A stretch of 64,000 bases of DNA from Sclerotinia nivalis (taxonomy: Eukaryota; Ascomycota; Leotiomycetes; Helotiales; Sclerotiniaceae): assembly GCA_029531795.1 (NCBI GenBank), contig JAPEIS010000010.1, positions 2,232,001 through 2,296,000 of the forward strand, given 5' to 3'. Below are positions 1-64,000 of this stretch, in pieces (the stretch's first letter is position 1; every line of letters starts with the position of its first letter). The translations under genes were made by a program, and so were the position numbers. The notes under the pieces are model-generated. The model was given only the letters and a program-made list of their open reading frames with translations, was not told the DNA's origin and did not search any database.

Positions 1-449
1 GGTGAATTTTTGAAAACGTCGTCATCGTGCGATCGCTCAGAGTGTGTTGCAGACCTCAATTCTCGTGCTAAAGAGACAGAACTTGGTGATTGATAATTTC
101 TGAAAAAGGGATCGTCTTTTATAGACGCAACAGAATCCCGATAACTTCGCGCGTGAAGGTCCAATCCTTCTTCCGAGTCGTCCTCTATCGGAGTCGAAAA
201 TCTCGTATCTAGACTACCGCTGCCACTACCCCTACTGAGAGGGACAAATGGTGCCGAGGCCGTTCGTGAACCCAGTCCAGGACGTGAGCGCAAACCAAAA
301 GTTGTTGAAGCGCCGGCAGATGGAGGGGAAACAGATAAAGCTCGAGAACTACGGTGAATTCGTTGTGAATCCGTTCGTAAAGGATTTGAGGATTTGGATC
401 GTTTCGAAGTCGTGCACGCTGGGAAACCACTGGCACCAACTTCATCCAT
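1..449 (-). CDS. N-terminal part of an unrecognised protein, cut by the left window edge
   Basis: Reading the minus strand from an ATG at 449-447 gives 149 codons without a stop up to the window edge. The predicted N-terminus starts MDEVGASGFPACTTSKRSKS. It is rich in Ser, Arg, Gly and Pro for about the first 85 residues, then becomes acidic (a run containing IEDDSEEGLD) and more ordered, with the phrase KDDPFFRNYQSP followed by an Arg/Ser-rich stretch. This resembles the disordered leader of a larger fungal protein. The open frame and codon quality support a real coding region; the frames overlapping it on either strand contain stops. I cannot name the family. The start codon is chosen because it is the only in-frame ATG at the 5' end. 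The promoter would lie at about 450-1,300. Confidence 0.6.
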   Translation of the reverse strand, partial: MDEVGASGFPACTTSKRSKSSNPLRTDSQRIHRSSRALSVSPPSAGASTTFGLRSRPGLGSRTASAPFVPLSRGSGSGSLDTRFSTPIEDDSEEGLDLHARSYRDSVASIKDDPFFRNYQSPSSVSLARELRSATHSERSHDDDVFKNS

Positions 450-39540: not shown

Positions 39541-40199
39541 TCCTTTCCATCTCCTCATTCCTTCCAAGCCATGGCAGATGACCAAATCACTACAGATTGT
39601 CTCATTTACTTCATGCCCTGAATTACACTTACTTCTAAGGTTTCTCTCCTTCATTTATTAGTCTTTCTCTCTATATATTCATCAAGAGATCATATAGTCT
39701 AGACTTTCAATCTATAGAGATACTTTCCATTAGTTTATATATAATATATGATTAGAGTATCAATTATAATATAGTAAATACTCCGAATAACAATTTTTTT
39801 AAATTTCGATACTCTATATAACAATTAGTAATATTACTTTTGATCTCAAATATTATTTAAGTATAGATCTATAAATAGATTTATAAATCAAACTTTAATA
39901 TATAAAAATATTAATTCAAGATTCATATCTAAATTAATTTAAATTCAAATCTCAATAAAAAAGAATAAATTTTAATAGAATTTTATTAATATAAAAATAA
40001 ATTATAAAATATTTCAAATCGTGAAAATTCAATTAATTATTATTTTTGTTATATTCGACAATATTAAATAAGATTTTATTAATAAATAATCTATAAAGCT
40101 ATAAATTATTATAAAAAATTATATTAATTTTGTTCCGAATCTGAATACGAATCAAAGGAAAGCCGAAAACGGGCTGATATCGAAGGATTTTATATATTA
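39541..40199. other. Border of the AT-rich block
   Basis: Base composition changes from mixed to strongly AT-rich at about 39,700. The stretch has no supported gene or repeat; it could be decayed transposon sequence. Confidence 0.6.
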
Positions 40200-41015
40200 A
40201 ATCAAGCACTCTAGTTTCCGACCATCCCTTCATTCCAATCACCATTTTATACCAAAAACTACGATTTTCATCTATTAATAATTTTACAATGAATTAATAT
40301 AATTAAATGAACTTTTAATTATGAACTTTTTATATGAATACAAAGAAATATTGAGAATTTCAGATTTTTTTCAATTTTTTTTCGTGAAAATATTAAAGGT
40401 TGAATTTTCAATTTTTAATTTGTATATAATTTATATACAAATTTAAAAAATATAAAATCTTGAATAGTTTTTCAACAAAAATTATTAAAAATAAAATAGT
40501 AATTTTTATAAAATCCTTGAAATATATTATATAAAATAGATTTAATTTTAAAATTTTATTTTTTATAAATAATGTTTTATTATCAATTGAATATTTATTT
40601 ATATAAAATTTTATATAGAATAAAATACAAATATTAATAAAAGATTATTTATAAATTATTTTATATAATAATTTGATTCATTCTATATATTATTATTCAA
40701 ATATTTCAAAAAAATTAATAGTTTATTTTTAATTATTTTTGTTGAAAAGTTATTTAAGATTTTGATGATTTTTCAATTTGTATATAAATTATATACAAAT
40801 TAAAATTCGAAAATTCAATCATTAATATCTCATCGAAAAAATTTATGAAAAATCTAAAATTTTCAAAATTGATTTATATTCCTAAAAAGATTCTATATTC
40901 AAAATTTTATCTAATTATATTCATAAATAAAGAAATTAAAAATGCCAAAAATCGTAATTTTTGATATGGTTGATGATCGGAAACTAGAGGTGGTCGGAAA
41001 CTAGAATAGTTGATT
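40200..41015. mobile_element. Whole-length palindromic (foldback) element, 816 bases, flanked by TA
   Basis: Terminal inverted repeats start AATCAAGCACTCTAGTTTCC on the left and, read from the right end inward, AATCAACTATTCTAGTTTCC. Similarity between the arms continues inward through the TTTGTATATAATTTATATACAAA segment to a perfect central palindrome ATATAAAATTTTATAT (centre between 40,608 and 40,609). The midpoint of the proposed ends is 40,607.5. The element is thus one long imperfect hairpin. TA lies on each side (40,198-40,199 and 41,016-41,017), as for Tc1/mariner/pogo-type insertions. There is no coding capacity. Confidence 0.75.
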
Positions 41016-41017
41016 TA

Positions 41018-41934
41018 GTTTGAAAAATTTTCATTATATATATATACAGGATTCTTTAATAGAATTAAAAAAGACAATGAAAAGTTTTATAATCTTTTTT
41101 AAATCTATTGTTATTCGAATATTAGTCGATTATTTACTATGATTCTTACAAATTTTGATCAAATTTTGAAAAAATTATAAGTGATTTAGTTTCATTTATA
41201 TATCTGTAATATTTTTAAATGCAAATTGAATCATTATTCTTAGAAATTTTATTCAAAATTTTACCTAAATTAATAATTTCTAAAGTATAATAACTAATCA
41301 AAATTATAAATTATAAATCTTTACTAAATAATTTATTTTTCAAAATTTATTCTCAGTACTAATTTTTTTAATTTAATATATTGATTTTTGAAAAATATAA
41401 TTTTTTATAAATTTTATTGATTATTGATATTTATTTAATTTTATATATATTATTATGAAATGATAATTTATATTAGTATATTTCAATTGTTTATATTAAA
41501 TTTCTAAAAAAGAAAAAAGAAAAAATATTAAAAGTTTTTTATATAAATATAATTCAATAGTATTATAATTAAAAAAATTTATTATTGAAATAATTTTTTA
41601 GAAAATTTATTATTATTATTATTATTATTATAAAAGATCAAAAGCAAAGTAATAAAGATTATATAATTTTTTAATTATTTTTTTAGTTAATATAAATATT
41701 TTATTTTTGGTTAATTCGATAAAAACTATTAAAATATAATAAATAAAATAAATAATAATAATATCTATAACAAAAAGATTGAAAATATAAAAAGAAAATC
41801 CAAAAAAGATGGAAAAATTAATAATAAAATCTCAAAAGGAAATAAAAATAAAAATAAAAGAACTTAAAATAATATAAAAAGAAAATTTAATATAAATAAA
41901 TAAAAGTAAATAAAATAATAGAAAAAGAATTCAA
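41018..41934. other. AT-rich stretch between the palindromic element and retrotransposon A
   Basis: About 0.9 kb, almost entirely A and T with an ATT trinucleotide run near 41,610-41,630. No feature beyond composition can be supported. Confidence 0.6.
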
Positions 41935-42391: not shown

Positions 42392-43386
42392 ATGGAAGAA
42401 GAAGAATAACAAATTGATTATCTATCTAATTCAATTTCATTTTGCTTTTATTATCTTATTTGTTTCGATTTTTATTAATTTGATTGACTTTTCGCTCTTA
42501 ACGCTCACTACAAATCCATTTGCCGCTTCTGTTTTGTTGAAACCCCAATTGAATAAAAAGATATCTAATCCTATATTATTCGATGAAACGAAAACCAATT
42601 TCGATTGTTTTATCGATCAAATACAGAATAAGATATATATCAACTTTGATTATTTTACTTTTCTGTATTTCTATTTGATTTATATAATTTATTGGATCTA
42701 TTATTATACAAATTCGATTATATAATATCAAAGGATAATTTATTAAATTCATCGATTATAAAAATCTATTACAAATATTGAAAAAAGTTTATAGAAATTA
42801 GAATAAATGAATCGAAACTCGAAAATTTCTAATGAATTTAAAATAGAAAAACCAATTATTCTATATCTTCTATACTGAATTCCAAAGATTAATATTAGAA
42901 ATTGTAATGATTAATGATAATAATACCTTAATGATTTTATTAGAATAAACCTTATTGAATAAACTAAAGAATCAGATTATTATTATTGAATTATCTACAA
43001 ATAGTATTAATATATTTATTGTATTTATATAGATATTGAAGAACCGCCGATTATATTTGATAAGATCGATCAATTCCAATTATAATCTAATTGTTCTATT
43101 ACTTTGTACTACTATTCAGAATCCGAATTTTGTTAATTATACTTCTATTTTATTCTTGAATACTACTAATCGATCTTTTGCTTCTATTATAATGATATCT
43201 ATCGAAGATTTAATAGATCTCAATTTTCAAAGATATATTAATAAATATAAACGAAAAAAATACTTTTGTTATAAATCTATTGATTATTATATAAAAGATT
43301 GTTCGTTTTCAAATAATCGTTTAATACAAACAAAAACTAATCTTATCAATTTTGTTCTATTATTTTTTATTTTGTTCTCTGTTTAA
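42392..43386 (+). pseudogene. gag relic of element A
   Basis: Starts ATG GAA GAA GAA GAA then TAA. Open stretches show a hydrophobic/charged capsid-like pattern. Near 43,250-43,310 the order KYFCYKSIDYYIKDC matches a CCHC zinc knuckle in which two Cys and the His have become Tyr, as expected from G-to-A or C-to-T changes. Confidence 0.55.
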
Positions 43387-44359
43387 ATTCAATTATATAT
43401 AATATTATTATATAATCTATTCTCTTTTGATTCTTTAAATTTAGGAAACGAAATCCGTTTAATATAAATTATTATTAAATGAAAATATTATATATATTAT
43501 ACTTATTCGTTGTTATAATTCGAAGTTTATCTTTCATTAAAAAAATAAACAATCAAGTAAATCTAATAATATTATTTATTATTATTCTATTAATATTTAA
43601 TCAATTTTATTTTATTTATATTATAATAAATAATAAATATAAAGAATATACTTTTGCAAATCGAAATTGAATTAAAGTTATTAAACTCTTGATTTACAAA
43701 TTATTTATTCTATTCGAAATTCTTGGATTCAATAAAAAAATACTATTTGAAAATTAAATAGATTATTATATTCTAATCGATCTACAAATCATTAATCATT
43801 ATAAGAAAGGATTAAAGATTTATATTATTGAATTAATTTATTATCCGATTGTTTTAGAGTTAATTTGATTAAAAAAATATAATCTCTGTATCGGATTTGT
43901 ATTTAATATTTTTTATTTCGATAACAAATTCTATCAGAAGTTCTGTAATACATTTGTATAATTATCAAATGTTCAAATTCTATCTAATATTTTTATTAAA
44001 GTCTATCTTGTTTATTTATTATTTTGTTCTAAAACTTTATAGAAAAAAGATATAATAAATATCTCAATTTGAATTTGTTTTATATATGCTCAAAAAGATT
44101 ATAAAATATTTCAAATCAATATTGAATTGATTAATCGAATCCTAAAGAAAAAAGAAGATTCTATTTTTGAAAGTTTATCGATTGAGTTCTGTTTGTAAAT
44201 CGATATCTTTTCTTTATATAATATCAATAAACTATTTTTATATTATCTATACAATCATAATATTCGATTACAAAATAGAATTAAACTACTATTTGGAGTT
44301 TTATATTCAATATTCTGGAACAAACTAAAAACTTTACAAGAATAATTAAAGGAAAACCT

Positions 44360-45496
44360 AATAAAAGAATTCATTAAACCAAATTCGTTTGCTTTTGCTT
44401 TTGCTTCGCTTGTTTTGTTTATCAAAAAATCCAATAATGATCTTCGATTCTGTATAAACTATTATATATTGAATAATCTATTTGTAAAAGATTAATATCT
44501 ATTATCTTTGATTAAGGAATTCTTGAATAATCTAAAGAGAATGAATTACTTTATAAAGATAAATATTATCTCTACTTTTAATAATATTCGAATCAAAAAA
44601 GGATAAGAATATTTGATTATATTTTATATTTGATTCAGTTTATTCGAAATTTTGATTATATTATTCGGATTAATCAAAACCCCAACGATATTCCAACGAT
44701 TTATTAATGATATTCTAAAAGAATATCTGAATATATTCTATATTGTTTATTTGAACGATATTCTGATTTACAATAAAATCTATTTGGAATATATAATATA
44801 TATATAGAAAATATTAAATATTTTACAAAAAACCGGATTATATATCAATTTATCAAAATATGAATTTCTAAAACTTGAAACGAAATTTTTAAATCTAATT
44901 ATAAATCGAAAAAGAATCCGAATAAACCCAATCAAAATAAAAACAATAATCAATTAAAAGATATTAAAGAATCTAATAAATATATAAATATTTATAAAAT
45001 TCAACAATTTCTATTAATATTTTATTTATAATTTCTTTTTGATCATTTATCTAATAGTAAATTTAATCAAAAAAAATAGTTTTTCAATAGAACTCCATCT
45101 ATAAAAAAACATTCTCGAATTTGAAGATTATATTTACAGCAATATTTGTATTAATCTTTTTCGATTAAAAGAAAAATATAATTCTAAAGATAGATATATT
45201 AGATTATATATTTATTAAGATTTTTTGGTAATATAATAATAAAGGGTTTTTAAAATTTGTTATATATTTTTCAAAGAAATATTCGATTATTGAATATAGC
45301 TACAAGATTTACAATAAAGAATTATTAGCAATTATCTATTATTTCGAAGAATAACAATTTGAATTAAAAAGCATCTCTTCTTCGATCAAAATTATTATAG
45401 ATTATAAGAATCTGGAATACTTCACTATAATGAAATTACTAAATCATTATCAAATTTGTTAATCCGAATTCCTATCCCATTTCAATTTCAAGATTA
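44360..45496 (+). pseudogene. Reverse transcriptase and RNase H relic of element A
   Basis: Reading the plus strand through stops gives a reverse transcriptase core: FQRFINDILKEYL, then YLNDILIY in place of the catalytic YLDD (Asp to Asn), then the thumb KYEFLKLETKFL. An RNase H segment follows (KELLAIIYYFEE, then DYKNLEYF, then the FLSHFNFKI stretch), where a palindromic element interrupts the frame at 45,497. Confidence 0.75.
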
Positions 45497-46157
45497 AGTC
45501 TAGTACCCTACTTTCGGGCCACCCCCTCTTTTGGGCCACCGTTACCACCAAAATTAACGATTTTTCGAATTTATAACTTCACGAAAAATCAATATAATCA
45601 ATTGAGATTTAAATTGTTAGTTCTTTATATAGTTATTGATTAATATTGAAAATATTAGAATTTTCGCGATTTTTAATAAAAAGTTATTAATATTTAAAAT
45701 TTCGAAGTTTTAATTTGTGTGTGATTTTGTGACAACTTTTTAATCAATTTGTTAACAAATTTTATAAATCTAGATAAATCAATAATTACAAATTATAATA
45801 CTATTAAATAATATATTTTTGAAAGCTTTAAAGATCAAAGAATCATTTAAATTTTATGATTTATTTTTAATTATTTTTATTGAAAAGTTAGTCAAAATTT
45901 CCAAAAAAAAATGAAATTTGTATAGGATTTATATACAAATCGAAAATCGAAATTTCAACATTTTATTTTCAACGATTCAAATTGTATAATATATTTCTAA
46001 ATTCCTGATTCTATATATAATTATATAAAGAATCTATAACTAAAATTTCAATTAATTATATTAATTATTGGTAGAGTTATTAATAGGTCAAAATCGTGAT
46101 TTTTGGTGTAAATGGGTGGCCCAAAAGAGGGGTGGCCCGAAAGTAGGGTACTAGACT
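45497..46157. mobile_element. Whole-length palindromic element inside retrotransposon A, 661 bases, TA-flanked
   Basis: Near-perfect terminal inverted repeats of 43-44 bases: left 45497-45540 starts AGTCTAGTACCCTACTTTCG; right 46115-46157 is its complement with a one-base gap. TA flanks both ends (45,495-45,496; 46,158-46,159). The tips are GC-rich and unmutated while the interior is AT-rich and itself an imperfect palindrome (for example TATAAAGAA...CAATT...ATTATATT segments matched in inverse near 45,640 and 46,050). The tips and internal motifs resemble the element at 40,200. No coding capacity. A Fot1/pogo-type non-autonomous element is likely. Confidence 0.8.
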
Positions 46158-46472
46158 TATATGCTATTCTGAAAAGCAAAAAACGAAATCTGATATCTTG
46201 ATTAGAAAATTAAAGAATTTACTTAAAGAAAAAATATACGTTTTCTATATTAGAATCAAATTATTCTGAAAATTAAAAACTTGAATATAAATTTATTCTT
46301 TATTGTTAAACTAAAAAAAAAGATTCCGTTTTGCAATTACAATTTATAATCAATTCAAAAAGAAAAGGAACGAATTGATATTTATTTATAAAATAAATAA
46401 ATCGAATATCCTTAATAAAATTATAAGAAAAAAAAAAGGAACGAATTAGCATTTATTTATAAAATAGAGAAA

Positions 46473-46892: not shown

Positions 46893-47482
46893 TCTAGATA
46901 TTATAATTATATTTCCCATTAGATTTACAATTACTATAATTGCTATTAAACAATTCTGAACTATAAAAACAAAAAAGAGTTTTATATCCTTTTTCGATTT
47001 TGTAACAAATCTAGAAAGATATCTCAATCGATTTCATTATTTATCTTTTGAAGAGTTCTAAATACAATATAATATTCGTAATAATCAATCGATTAATCAA
47101 AATAAAGCATTTTCTACTCTATCAAAAAATCTACAATTCTGAAAAGATATCCTATTTGTTTTTGAAGTATATATAAAAGTTTTATAACCTATTCTAGATT
47201 ATTATATCTAATTATAAAATCCAATTTATTTTTGATTTCTAGAAATATATCTATAAATAATTAGATATTATTTCGAAATTATCGATAGTTTATTATTTTG
47301 AAATCAATAAACAAATAAAAAAAGCAAATATAATACTCAAATAATATCTTTATTTATATATATCTTATTTGCAAAATGATTGATCCGAATAATTATCAAT
47401 CATTAAATTCTCAATCAATTCCATTTGATCCGAAAATTCCTATTTATTATCATTCTTTGCTAATTACAATTTTCATTCTCGA

Positions 47483-48105
47483 ATGGATTTCGAATCTACT
47501 ATATTCTCTAATCAACCTAAAATCCTAAATACTAAAGAATTCATCAAAAAGATAAAGTTAATTATTATTCATCTGAAAACCGAATTAATTATTAATCAAA
47601 CTCATTATTCAAAAAATACCAATTCCTATCATTTATCTATTTATCATTATCAATCTAAAGATCTAATCTAATTTAATATTAAAAATATTTGAACCTTTCG
47701 TTTTTAAAAAAAACTAGATTAAAAAAATCTAAATCTTTTTTAAATCCTGGAAATTATAAGCTTATATATATATAAATTGAAACTTCTGATTTTTATAAAG
47801 AATTATTTAATCTTTTATATTAATTTATTATATTCTACTAATAATAATTCTATTCTTGATCAATATAATCTATCCCTTCTCTTTATCGAAATCGAAAATA
47901 TTAAACAATTCGAAATAAAGAAAGTCTTGGATTTCTATTGAAAACATCAAAATTATAATAATCTTTATCTAAAATATATTATCTATTAAATAAATTACAA
48001 TATATCTATTGAATAATCTATAAAGTATTTGAAGAATATTCAAAAACTAATCTATAATTATCATTATTATTACTTTAATAAACCTAATCCCTTTAATCGT
48101 TTCAA
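47483..48105 (+). pseudogene. Integrase C-terminus and chromodomain relic of element A
   Basis: 47,483-47,671 encodes the helix-rich post-core segment (FIKKIKLIIIHLKTELII, then HYSKNTNSYH). After several stops, about 47,908-48,105 reads QFEIKKVLDFY, NLYLKYI, and YHYYYFNKPNPFN, the layout of a chromodomain with stops at likely Arg, Trp and Gln codons. Confidence 0.6.
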
Positions 48106-48133
48106 CAAAGTTCAATCCTAAAAAAAAAGATAT

Positions 48134-48346
48134 TATTACAAGATCCCTATATAAAATATACAGAGATTATCAGATTCCTAATCTATATATATCGGCCCTT
48201 GAATAAATGTAGACTAGCCCCTATCGGAGTTAGCACTATATACAAATGTATTTAAAAGATTATTCTTATTATAGAATTATAATTCCTTGAACTACATCTT
48301 ATTAATAAAATTTATACCTGTTATTCTATCTATCGCCTCTATAATA
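48134..48346 (+). repeat. 3' LTR of element A
   Basis: 213 bases, start TATTACAAGATCCC, end ATAATA. Same length as the 5' LTR without gaps. Confidence 0.9.
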
Positions 48347-58876: not shown

Positions 58877-59112
58877 TATTACGGAGGCAGCAGACAGAAT
58901 AATAGAAATCACTTTTATTAATAAGATGTAGTTCGAAGAGCTATGTTTTTACAAAAGGAATGTTTCCTTAAATACATTTGTATATGCTAGGGCTCCGAGC
59001 CCTAGCGTTTTTACAGAGTACGATCATTGAATGTGCTTCGCTCGGTGTTGGATCGGATAAATGAAGCTTATTAAAGGGATCGATTCAATAATCCAACCTT
59101 GATCTTGTAATA
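58877..59112 (-). repeat. 3' LTR of element C
   Basis: On the minus strand begins TATTACAAGATC, as in the 3' LTR of A. It ends with GAATAATAG...GTAATA-type sequence corresponding to the A LTR 3' half (TATTAATAA, AGTTCGAAGAGC). The 5' part (U3) differs from A and includes CTAGGGCTCGGAGCCCTAG, a GC-rich palindrome. The upstream boundary at 59,112 is inferred from a GTAATA end motif. Confidence 0.7.
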
Positions 59113-59149
59113 ATATTTTTTTCCTTAAGGTCGAATTCCGTTGAGGTAG

Positions 59150-59400
59150 TTATGGAGGCTAAATTTATCAGAATACCTTTGATAGTAATTCTAGATCAAT
59201 TTTCAAACATTGTTTAGGTAATCAACAAACTTTTCGATCGGTTTATTGTAGCCGATCTATCGGACGATATATTTCAGACAAGGGCTATTACGATTGTAAT
59301 ACTTTTAATAGGAATTCAAGACTTCCTTTATTTCGAATTGTTCAATTCCTTTGATTTCAATAGAAGAAAAAGGCAGATTATATTGATTAAGAATAGAATC
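59150..59400 (-). pseudogene. Chromodomain relic of element C
   Basis: Reading the minus strand gives IEQFEIKEVLNSY followed by a stop and a KYY...LKYI segment, matching the chromodomain relic of element A. Confidence 0.5.
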
Positions 59401-59574
59401 ATTATAAATAAAATGTAATAAGTTTATATAAAATATAAGATGATTTCTTATCAAGATAGGTAGTTCGAGTTTATAAATATATATATTTATAATTTGCAGG
59501 ATTTAGAACAGATTTAGATTCTTTCAATCTAGTTTCTTTTAGGGTTTCAGGATTTTGATGTTTTTAGTATTCAA

Positions 59575-59796
59575 CTAAATCAGATTATTAGGATTGTAAT
59601 AGCGAATAAAAGTATAATGGATATTGGTATTCTTTGTATAACGAGTTTGGCTAATGATCAACTTGGTCTTCAGGTATTCAACAATCAGGGATATTTTCTT
59701 GACAAATTTTTCGGTATTTTGAATGTTAGGATGGTTAGTAACGATAAATAATTCAAATTCTATATACAAATAATAGTTATAATTTGTAAAGAACAA
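59575..59796 (-). pseudogene. Integrase C-terminal relic of element C
   Basis: An open stretch with FVKKISLIVEYLKTKLIISQ and RYTKNTNIHY, colinear with the element A segment at 47,483-47,671. Confidence 0.7.
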
Positions 59797-60354
59797 AATT
59801 AAATAGGAATTTTCAGATTAAACAGAATTGATTGAAAATTCGATAATTGATAATTATTTGAATTAATCGTTTTGTAGATATGAGATATATAATCGGAGAT
59901 ATTATTCGAATATAGTATTTGCTTTCTTAATTTGTTTATTGGTTTTCGGATGGTAGGTTATCGATAATTTCGATATTGTATTCAAATGTTTATAGATGTA
60001 TTTCTAGAAATCAGATATAAATTGAGTATTACGATTGGATATAATCGTTGATGGTAGATTGTGTAGCTTTTAGATATATTTCAAGAATAAATGGATTACT
60101 TTTTCGGAATTATAAGTATTGTGATAAGGTAGGAAATGTTTTATTTTAATTAATTGATTGATTATTATAAATATTGTATTGTAATTAAAACTTTTCGGGA
60201 GATGTATTATGAAATCGATCGATATATCTTTTTATGTTTGTTAGGGGATTGGGAATAGGCGAAGGATATTTTCTTGTTTTTTATGGTTTGGTATTGTTTA
60301 ATAGTAGTTATGATAATTATATATTCAATAATTGATGTAATTATAATATCCAGG

Positions 60355-61970: not shown

Positions 61971-63166
61971 TTAGATATTTTTGTTTTTCTTTAATTTTTA
62001 TATTGTTAAATGTAAAGATGATATTGATCTTTGTAAAGAACTTTATTTTTTTTAGATTGTTTAAAGATTCTTTAATAAGTGGTAATGGGTAATGATCTTG
62101 TATTAATAGATTATTTAGAATTTAATAATCGATACAAAATTATAATCCTTTATTAGATTTCTTAATGAACAAAATAAACGAAGTAGAAATGGACGAATTC
62201 GAATAATTAGTTTTTTAAAGCGATAAATTTGTTTTGGAATATAAAATAAAGAGTTTCAAATAGTAATTTGGTTCTTTTTTTTTAGATAAATATTGTAATT
62301 GTATGATCGATGTGGGGATAGTTTATTAGTGTTTCGTAGGGAGAATATATCAATTCAGGATCGGAATTCCTTAAACAAATTAGATGAAATAGGGTCTTTC
62401 CTTTGAGATAGAATATCGTTAATCAGGTTTATAGTAATCTAGAATATCTTGTAATTATAATGAATATATACTATATAGGTTTTTATTGATATAAATATAA
62501 TGTTTTTATTTTGAAGAGTATTCAAATGAAAAGGCAGATATACTGGGTAAGCTTTCGATGGGATATTCTACAATACTTTTATATAGGATGATTATAACAA
62601 TGTATTACAGAATTTTCGATAGAATTTGTTATCGAATTGAAATATATTAAATGCAAATTCGATATAGGGATTGTACTTTTTTAATTATACTAATTCTAGA
62701 ATAATCGAATAATAGATTAGCTCAATAATATAGATTTTTGATTTCTTTTTGTAATGATCATTAATTTGTAGATCGATTAGAATGTAACGATTTATTCGGT
62801 TTTCAGACAATATTTTTCTATCGAATTCAATGATTTCGAATAGGATAGGTAATTTGTATATTGGGAGTTTAATAGTTTCAATTCAATTTTGGTTTGCAAA
62901 AGTATATCCTTTGTATTTGTTATTCATTATAATATAAGTAGAATAGAATCGATTAAATATCGATAGGATAGTAATAAATAATATCATCAGATTTGCTTAA
63001 TTGTTTATTTCTTCAATGAAAGATAAACTTCGAATTGTAGTGATGAATAGGTATAATATATATAGGGTTTTTGTTTGATAACGATTTATACTAAACGGGC
63101 TTTGTTTCCCAAATTCGAGGAACCGGAAGGGAATAGACTGTATAGTGATATAATATATAGTTGAAT

Positions 63167-63517
63167 CTAGACAAAGAACGGAACAGGGGATAATAGAATA
63201 GAATTAATAAAACTAATTCTAATTTGTATAGAACGATTATCTGAGAACAAATAATCTTTTATATAGTAATCGATAGATCTACAATAGAAGTATTTCTTTT
63301 GTTTATATCTATTAATATATCTTTGGGAATTGAGATCCATTGGATCTTTAGTAGATATAATTGTAGTAGAAACAATAGATCGGATAATAGTCTTCGAGGA
63401 CGGAACAAGAGTATAATTAATAGGATTCAGGTTTTGAATAGTAATATAAAACAATAAAACGATTGGATTACGATTAAAGTTGATCGATTCTATCAGATAC
63501 AGATAATGATTCTCCAA
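63167..63517 (-). pseudogene. gag C-terminal relic of element C
   Basis: 116 codons colinear with element A 43,036-43,386: LYLIESINFNRNPIVLLFY and a zinc-knuckle remnant YFYCRSIDYYIKDY, where most metal-binding Cys/His have become Tyr. Confidence 0.7.
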
Positions 63518-64000
63518 TGTTTATACGAAAATAGTGAATATATCGGTATTATTTGTAAAAGGTTCAATGATAACAATTTAGTTCTTTAATTTACTTGATA
63601 AAGCTTATTCTAACAGGATAATCAAAATATTGTTGTTATCGGTTATCTCGGTTTCCAATATTAATCTTTGAAACTCAATATAAAAGATATAGAACGATTA
63701 GTTTTTCTATTTCAGATTGATTAAGAGTTTTCGGGTTTCGGTTTGTTTGTTTTAGTTTTTATAAGTTTTTTTTAGTATTTGTAATAGATCTTTATAATCA
63801 GCAAATTTAACAAATTATTCTTTGATATTATATAATCGAATTTATATAGTAACAGATCCAATTAATCTTTCAGTTATGTAAATTAGATAGGAATACAGGG
63901 AAATGAAGTAGTCGGAATTGGTATACATTTTATTCTGTATTTGATCAACAAATCGATCAAGATCGATTTTCGTTTTATCAAATAATATAGAATCAGATAT

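Follow-up and report, generated by a model that had tools for sequence, protein, structure and literature searches.

What kind of element is an 816-bp stretch of AT-rich DNA whose two halves are inverted copies of each other, and how has it kept its symmetry? Long palindromes are unstable. Why they persist, and how non-autonomous elements keep both of their ends matched to a transposase, are open questions that such a locus addresses. The element lies in a stretch of 64,000 nucleotides that we analysed as a whole (the window; G000:C10:2232001-2296000), from a genome of 50.3 Mb in 31 contigs. GC content per 2-kb bin is 0.38-0.48 before 40 kb of the window and 0.15-0.33 beyond. NFU1 is encoded in the window, 96% identical to the protein of Monilinia fructicola and 92% to that of Botrytis paeoniae, which makes a host near Monilinia within the Sclerotiniaceae probable. 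The AT-rich block also holds inverted repeats at 42687-43990 / 62563-63866 (1304 nt at 77%) and 47003-48145 / 59101-60243 (686 and 441 nt, 72-73%), which are perhaps old transposon copies in opposite orientation.

Structure and insertion site of the window element

The preliminary description had read the element as one long palindrome between TA dinucleotides, and the alignments bore this out. In local alignment the left arm and the reverse complement of the right arm scored 337, against a mean of 40 and a maximum of 63 in 300 mononucleotide shuffles, and a mean of 28.8 and a maximum of 69 in 50 control windows of 816 bp (41.1-63 kb, second family copy excluded). The inverted match covers the whole way between the tips and the centre, with 76-80% identity between the arms depending on the alignment; a global alignment gave 319 identities and 82 mismatches (319/401), and another 324/399. 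Nor does the likeness sink to that of shuffled AT-rich sequence beyond the outer ~60 bases: the innermost 155 + 155 bp are 77% complementary, without a spacer. A perfect central palindrome exists, as had been described, but it measures 18 bp, not 16, and its axis lies one base from the exact midpoint (Table 1). RNA folding predicted one long hairpin of -237.3 kcal/mol (20 shuffles: mean -116.4, sd 5.59; z = -21.6), and the ~400 paired bases claimed for it come down to ~320 matching positions because the arms are imperfect. No ORF of at least 200 aa overlaps the element.

The flanks of the element (40080-40199 and 41018-41109) are part of a repeat, with relatives at C7:1243257, C14:2099786 and C6:1568537. 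Four relatives spanned the junction; the one aligned base by base is an empty site that crosses it with a single TA (Table 1). Other copies were examined with 27 joined-flank queries against the loci fetched, which yielded a junction-spanning relative for seven. Clean single-TA empty sites were found for L008, L015 and L019. That of L020 is consistent with a single TA but lies within a TATATA stretch (relatives 74% and 65%), and the relatives of L009 (small deletion), L021 (poor alignment) and L027 (relative without TA) gave no clean TA junction. With element ends placed by searching for a TAARTN-type motif near the border of the self-match, TA was present at the ends of 27 of the 28 elements examined, with TAAGTC or TAAATC on each side.

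Table 1. Positions of the window element and its parts, of the second family member in the window, and of the high-identity tracts (columns of the arm alignment)
Feature	Position	Strand	Remarks
Palindromic Fot1/pogo-type MITE, subfamily A	40200..41015	.	816 bp, GC 15.6%; locus L006; sister L007 at 94%
Target-site duplication, left TA	40198..40199	.	single TA at the same place in empty-site relative G000:C7:1243257-1243412
Target-site duplication, right TA	41016..41017	.	
Left terminal repeat	40200..40241	+	including its TA, 36/44 first bases as in L089 (transposase-bearing)
Right terminal repeat	40974..41015	-	including its TA, 35/44 first bases as in L089
Palindrome left arm	40200..40608	+	
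Palindrome right arm	40609..41015	-	
Perfect central palindrome	40600..40617	.	18 bp, axis 40608/40609
Second family member, subfamily E	45495..46159 (L088:996-1660)	.	665 bp, shortened near centre, 98% identical to L038
L008 tract	columns 104-319		95% inside, 66% outside
L009 tract	columns 57-282		98% inside, 76% outside; columns 1-56 also 0.91 alike
L011 tract	columns 4-83		97% inside, 73% outside
L017 tract	columns 180-326		98% inside, 68% outside
L019 tract	columns 150-320		92% inside, 68% outside
D tract	columns about 4-190		96-100% inside, 79-84% outside
L013 tract	columns 302-404		87% inside, 72% outside

A dispersed family and its partners with transposase remains

A search of the same genome returned at least 100 family matches (40 of 51 candidates scored). 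Among the 39 loci fetched, 19 showed one continuous inverted self-match of 765-842 bp. Of a 663-bp class, six copies (five further loci and a second place in L013) had an inverted self-match of 663-671 bp, and the remaining 15 loci were truncated, carried inserts or had no long inverted match. When the genome was searched for the pattern of one end sequence, 54 places were found at no more than 3 mismatches, and none with the backward control. The family is dispersed, in several copies and of near-constant length, as a MITE is.

Subfamilies were named from ends and core: A (the window copy, L007, L008 and L009), B (L011 and L012), C (L015, L017 and L019), D (eight insert-free copies, mean identity 97.3%), E (the 663-bp class, shortened near the centre) and F (L013). 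Nine E copies were compared, those from L081-L088 being L082, L083 and L088 only, with a mean identity of 97.2%. Between subfamilies, mean arm identity is 0.66-0.77. Subfamily E looks like a recent burst. Flank GC is 0.26-0.44 at five E copies (L035-L039) and 0.17-0.25 at eleven D-type copies, perhaps a matter of age or of target choice. Inserts of ~217 bp (L028, about 1378-1594) and ~285 bp (L031, about 1277-1561) sit at nearly the same element place (query 587-597) in two D-type elements, and others lie close to the centre in L033 and L034.

Similar ends flank elements of ~1.8-2.1 kb, and all nine of those read (L089-L095, L100, L101) contain PF03184 (DDE_1) matches. Over the first 44 bases, L089 is matched at 43 by L009, at 40 by L007 and at 36 by the window copy; L014 (D) matches L100 at 43/44 and L038 (E) matches L093 at 41/44. 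Over the first 31 bases, L017 (C) is identical to L093 (31/31) and L011 (B) agrees with L092 at 30/31, and L013 (F) has no good partner for its ends (best 25/31). The partner groups around L089, L090 and L100/L101 are 67-73% identical to one another, about as the MITE subfamilies are, and the ends of the helpers appear to have diverged alongside those of the MITEs. Degenerate Fot1/pogo-type elements with ends matching different MITE subfamilies lie at G000:C2:1736201-1738023, C11:292904-294985, C4:2377035-2378858 and C12:1983373-1985196, among others.

Beyond the terminal repeat, some MITE arms are weakly similar to the subterminal stretch of a partner (about 64-177 bp). This similarity was above the best shuffle for both arms of L011 (one barely), the left arm of L017, the right arm of L009 (barely) and both arms of L038, and not for the right arm of L017, the left arm of L009 or L014, in a comparison that favours the real arms, as these were scored against both ends of each partner and the shuffles against one. 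In all nine partners read, the PF03184 stretch is either interrupted by stops or surrounded by short open frames, so no working helper transposase was found among them; ORF listings gave none of at least 120 aa in L090 and L091 and none of at least 100 aa in L089. For L089 one end was found, and a second was sought and not found. These partners are assigned to the Fot1/pogo type from PF03184, from the TA and from the motif that is doubled in their ends, and we take the end letters to resemble published Fot1 ends. Inserted at TA, and with ends in common with transposase-remnant elements, the window element is therefore a palindromic, non-autonomous Fot1/pogo-type MITE.

Mosaic identity between the arms

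Mere ageing of a single palindrome should leave the identity between its arms constant over their length, or give related copies one shared pattern of unevenness; neither was observed. The arm alignment comprised 24 copies, with 48 arms. The arm tables omit L010 (one end not found), the insert-bearing L028, L031 and L034, and the truncated or non-palindromic L023, L025, L026, L029, L030, L032, L033 and L040-L044. For the whole-arm alignment and trees the E copies were divided into arms at mid-length, which misaligns these arms since E is a shortened derivative; E was accordingly omitted from the AU, segment-tree and best-tract tests. A best-tract permutation test on the 18 non-E copies gave p of 0.0015 or less in 14 (L008, L009, L011, L012, L017, L019 and the eight D copies), 0.0025 in L013 and about 0.03 (0.0285) in L015. 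No significant tract was found in the window copy (p 0.40) or its sister L007 (p 0.50); the window copy is an aged member of the family. As copies of the same subfamily inherit the same event, the 14 strong copies count as about five events (L008, L009, B, C and D). Identity in the tracts is mostly 95-100%, and their positions differ between subfamilies (Table 1): the B and D tracts begin at the tip, and the L008, C and F tracts lie inside the arm.

Different segments of the same arms tell conflicting histories. Between columns 104 and 282, the two arms within L008 and within L009 are 0.95 and 0.97 identical, compared with 0.88 and 0.89 for the same arms between the two copies, while at columns 331-441 the within-copy values are 0.64 and 0.62 and the between-copy values 0.85 and 0.82. 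In the segment trees, built without E and three D copies, the arms of L008 are sisters at 111-220 (98/95), as are those of L009 (95/88), and at 331-441 L008_R groups with L009_R (99/96) and L008_L with L009_L (86/83); at 1-110 and 221-330 these pairs were poorly resolved. L011 and L017 keep at 327-441 an old arm split common to B and C (alpha-alpha 0.93, beta-beta 0.94, within-copy 0.55/0.59), and the arms of each are 0.98 alike elsewhere, at 1-83 in L011 and at 180-326 in L017. We relied on segment trees and quartets because the deep branches of whole-arm trees shifted with program and row set, the placement of the L015 and F arms changing with them.

Sites pairing the arms by copy and by arm numbered 17/23 for L008/L009, 15/35 for L011/L017 and 17/36 for L012/L019, with 2, 3 and 4 swapped sites, respectively. 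The two kinds fall in largely separate blocks (p = 0.0002 per pair, the floor of 5000 permutations), and for L008/L009 and L011/L017 their segregation persisted when the aligner was run with three different settings. Transversions alone gave the same segregation (8/13, 6/25 and 8/23 for the three pairs), which excludes C-to-T decay as the source of the blocks. Recombination between different copies of the family, not between the arms of one copy, could also leave mosaics, and the genome holds many similar copies. We consider this unlikely, as each arm of L008 and of L009 is, at columns 111-220, most closely related to the other arm of its own copy, and a foreign donor would need to have converted both arms alike.

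Alternatively, each subfamily may have built its palindrome anew from a single-armed precursor, with no later conversion. Subfamily D lends this some substance: its arms form one group in whole-arm trees (100/100) and in the four segments (89/86 to 100/100), and of arm-specific differences D and B/C have none in common when oriented alike and two when the orientation is swapped. An AU test was run with four of the eight D copies and without E, F and L015, its groups having been named only once the first tree had been seen. It rejected assigning one D arm to each of the two arm lineages of B/C, whichever way they were paired (p-AU 1.6e-7), and in the case of L006/L007 (the A lineage) rejection was modest (p 0.03 and 0.01). 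Against new palindromes stands the centre, which is homologous: across the 14 aligned copies the symmetry axis lies either at column 418 or at column 423, out of 831; with its position so nearly constant, the palindrome is most simply ancestral. L008/L009 and B/C also keep old inner arm divergence and yet pair by copy elsewhere, which contradicts the idea for these subfamilies and leaves it improbable. For D, because its arms group together in each of the four segments, a whole renewal of the palindrome is equally as possible as conversion. Since just 2 of 106 off-majority substitutions in the eight D copies recur in both arms of one copy, conversion after the D burst was at most rare. Conversion is thus episodic, or limited to source copies.

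Probable arm-to-arm gene conversion, and known systems

Taken at the level of sequence comparison, the mosaic, the conflict between by-copy and by-arm segments and the homologous centre carry the signature expected of gene conversion between the arms, which would have taken place in about five lineages. We regard it as very probable that the family is one of non-autonomous, fully palindromic MITEs mobilised in trans by Fot1/pogo-type transposases, and that one ancestral palindrome later underwent conversion between its arms in several lineages. This reading draws on what the sequences show: the structure, the insertion at TA, the family, the ends in common with transposase-bearing elements, the mosaic tracts and the conflicting segment trees. 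Transposases of the Fot1/pogo type (Tc1/mariner superfamily, TA target) would recognise the common ends and move the MITE in trans. The subfamilies would descend from one palindrome with the same centre, and in several lineages segments of one arm would have been copied onto the opposite arm. Such copying would wipe out arm divergence in tracts, including the terminal repeat in some lineages, and would preserve both the symmetry of the element and the match between its ends. Its route may be a hairpin or cruciform intermediate, or repair of the gap that excision leaves. Repair inside a hairpin or cruciform would account better for the internal tracts (L008, C and F) than would gap repair working inward from the ends, and copying that starts at the tip, as the B and D tracts and the likeness at columns 1-56 of L009 suggest, would re-match the ends.

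The preliminary description had also raised a role as a source of dsRNA and small RNAs. That the palindrome is maintained in order to silence related transposons in this way seems to us doubtful: the single hairpin predicted from folding would suit such a role, and the near-perfect palindrome Made1 is described as yielding microRNAs in the excerpted text of PMC1784062, but positions 39000-64000 of the window gave no Rfam match at gathering score, and conversion would account for the symmetry without selection. A single old palindrome whose arm segments became alike without conversion, through unequal rates or hairpin selection, is hardly credible: AT-rich, low-complexity DNA is hard to align, and identity between subfamilies does vary over the arm (0.57-0.85 across ten windows with data), but the tracts occupy different columns in each subfamily, arm-to-arm identity at columns 41-160 is 0.98-1.0 in L014 and 0.68-0.70 in L007, and the by-copy sites stay in blocks with transversions only.

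Tests did not bear out separate origins of the palindromes, differences in rate or classical RIP. The neighbourhood had been called RIP-mutated, a label that found no support in the classical CpA sense. Compared with L007, from which the direction of change was assumed without an outgroup, the window copy has 38 GC>AT and 8 AT>GC transitions, and these showed no CpA preference. The classical test values, judged by thresholds given in the excerpted text of PMC4188875, were 0.79 and 1.81 for the window element and 0.85 and 1.21 for the block at 40-64 kb; among seven further copies, L038 was borderline (0.90 and 1.04).

Gene conversion between the arms suggests a further idea, which we put forward tentatively and hold to be rather less probable than not. 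Long palindromic MITEs might renew their symmetry by arm copying that is coupled to transposition, with a hairpin or a gap-repair intermediate as its route, so that one lineage can switch its Fot1-type helper family. If so, a change suiting a new transposase at one end could spread to the other end. With its diverged, converted and centre-shortened members at known places, this dispersed family would document, in nature, how conversion between the arms has acted on a small mobile palindrome, a record in which hairpin-repair and gap-repair models become testable.

Among known systems, the Fot1/pogo-type elements of ascomycetes (Fot1, Flipper of Botrytis) are like the window element in their TA target and in having ends with a doubled motif, and the ends are common with the ~1.8-2.1 kb PF03184-remnant elements of the same genome. 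Unlike these elements, the window MITE has no coding capacity that we could see, and its inverted repeat reaches the centre. Foldback elements of Drosophila consist for the most part of long inverted repeats, with arms made of short tandem direct repeats. Long inverted repeats make up most of the window element as well; it differs in its TA target and Fot1-type ends. A Foldback identity was rejected, as no tandem repeat family was listed in the arms apart from a 15-nt motif doubled at the right end.

Ordinary MITEs had been contrasted with the window element as having a unique middle, which is true of many. Palindromic MITEs are known all the same, an example being human Made1, a mariner-type MITE that is almost all palindrome and would fold into a single hairpin; the term used for these elements in PMC1784062 (in excerpt) is 'nearly perfect palindromes'. 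The arms of the window element meet at the centre in the same way, almost without a unique middle. Made1 measures 80 bp with 37-bp arms, compared with ~800 bp and ~400-bp arms here, and the excerpted text of PMC1784062 makes no mention of arm-to-arm conversion for it. Sex-chromosome palindromes are kept alike by gene conversion between their arms, according to the excerpted PMC3403216 and PMC7023750. The likeness to our family lies in this conversion; the difference is that those palindromes are stretches of chromosome, whereas here a mobile element is concerned, in which conversion could also re-match the terminal repeats. Related literature on gene conversion with TIRs, MITEs or palindromes includes, as far as its excerpts go, PMC3733652 and PMC3315735. 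Among the matches listed from the open-access literature, no paper dealt with a 'palindromic MITE' or 'fully palindromic' MITE, and none joined palindromic MITEs with arm-to-arm conversion, which does not imply absence from print. Palindromic MITEs, and conversion between the arms of palindromes, are thus already known; what appears unexpected, judging from the aligned copies, is the mosaic of arm identity within a MITE family.
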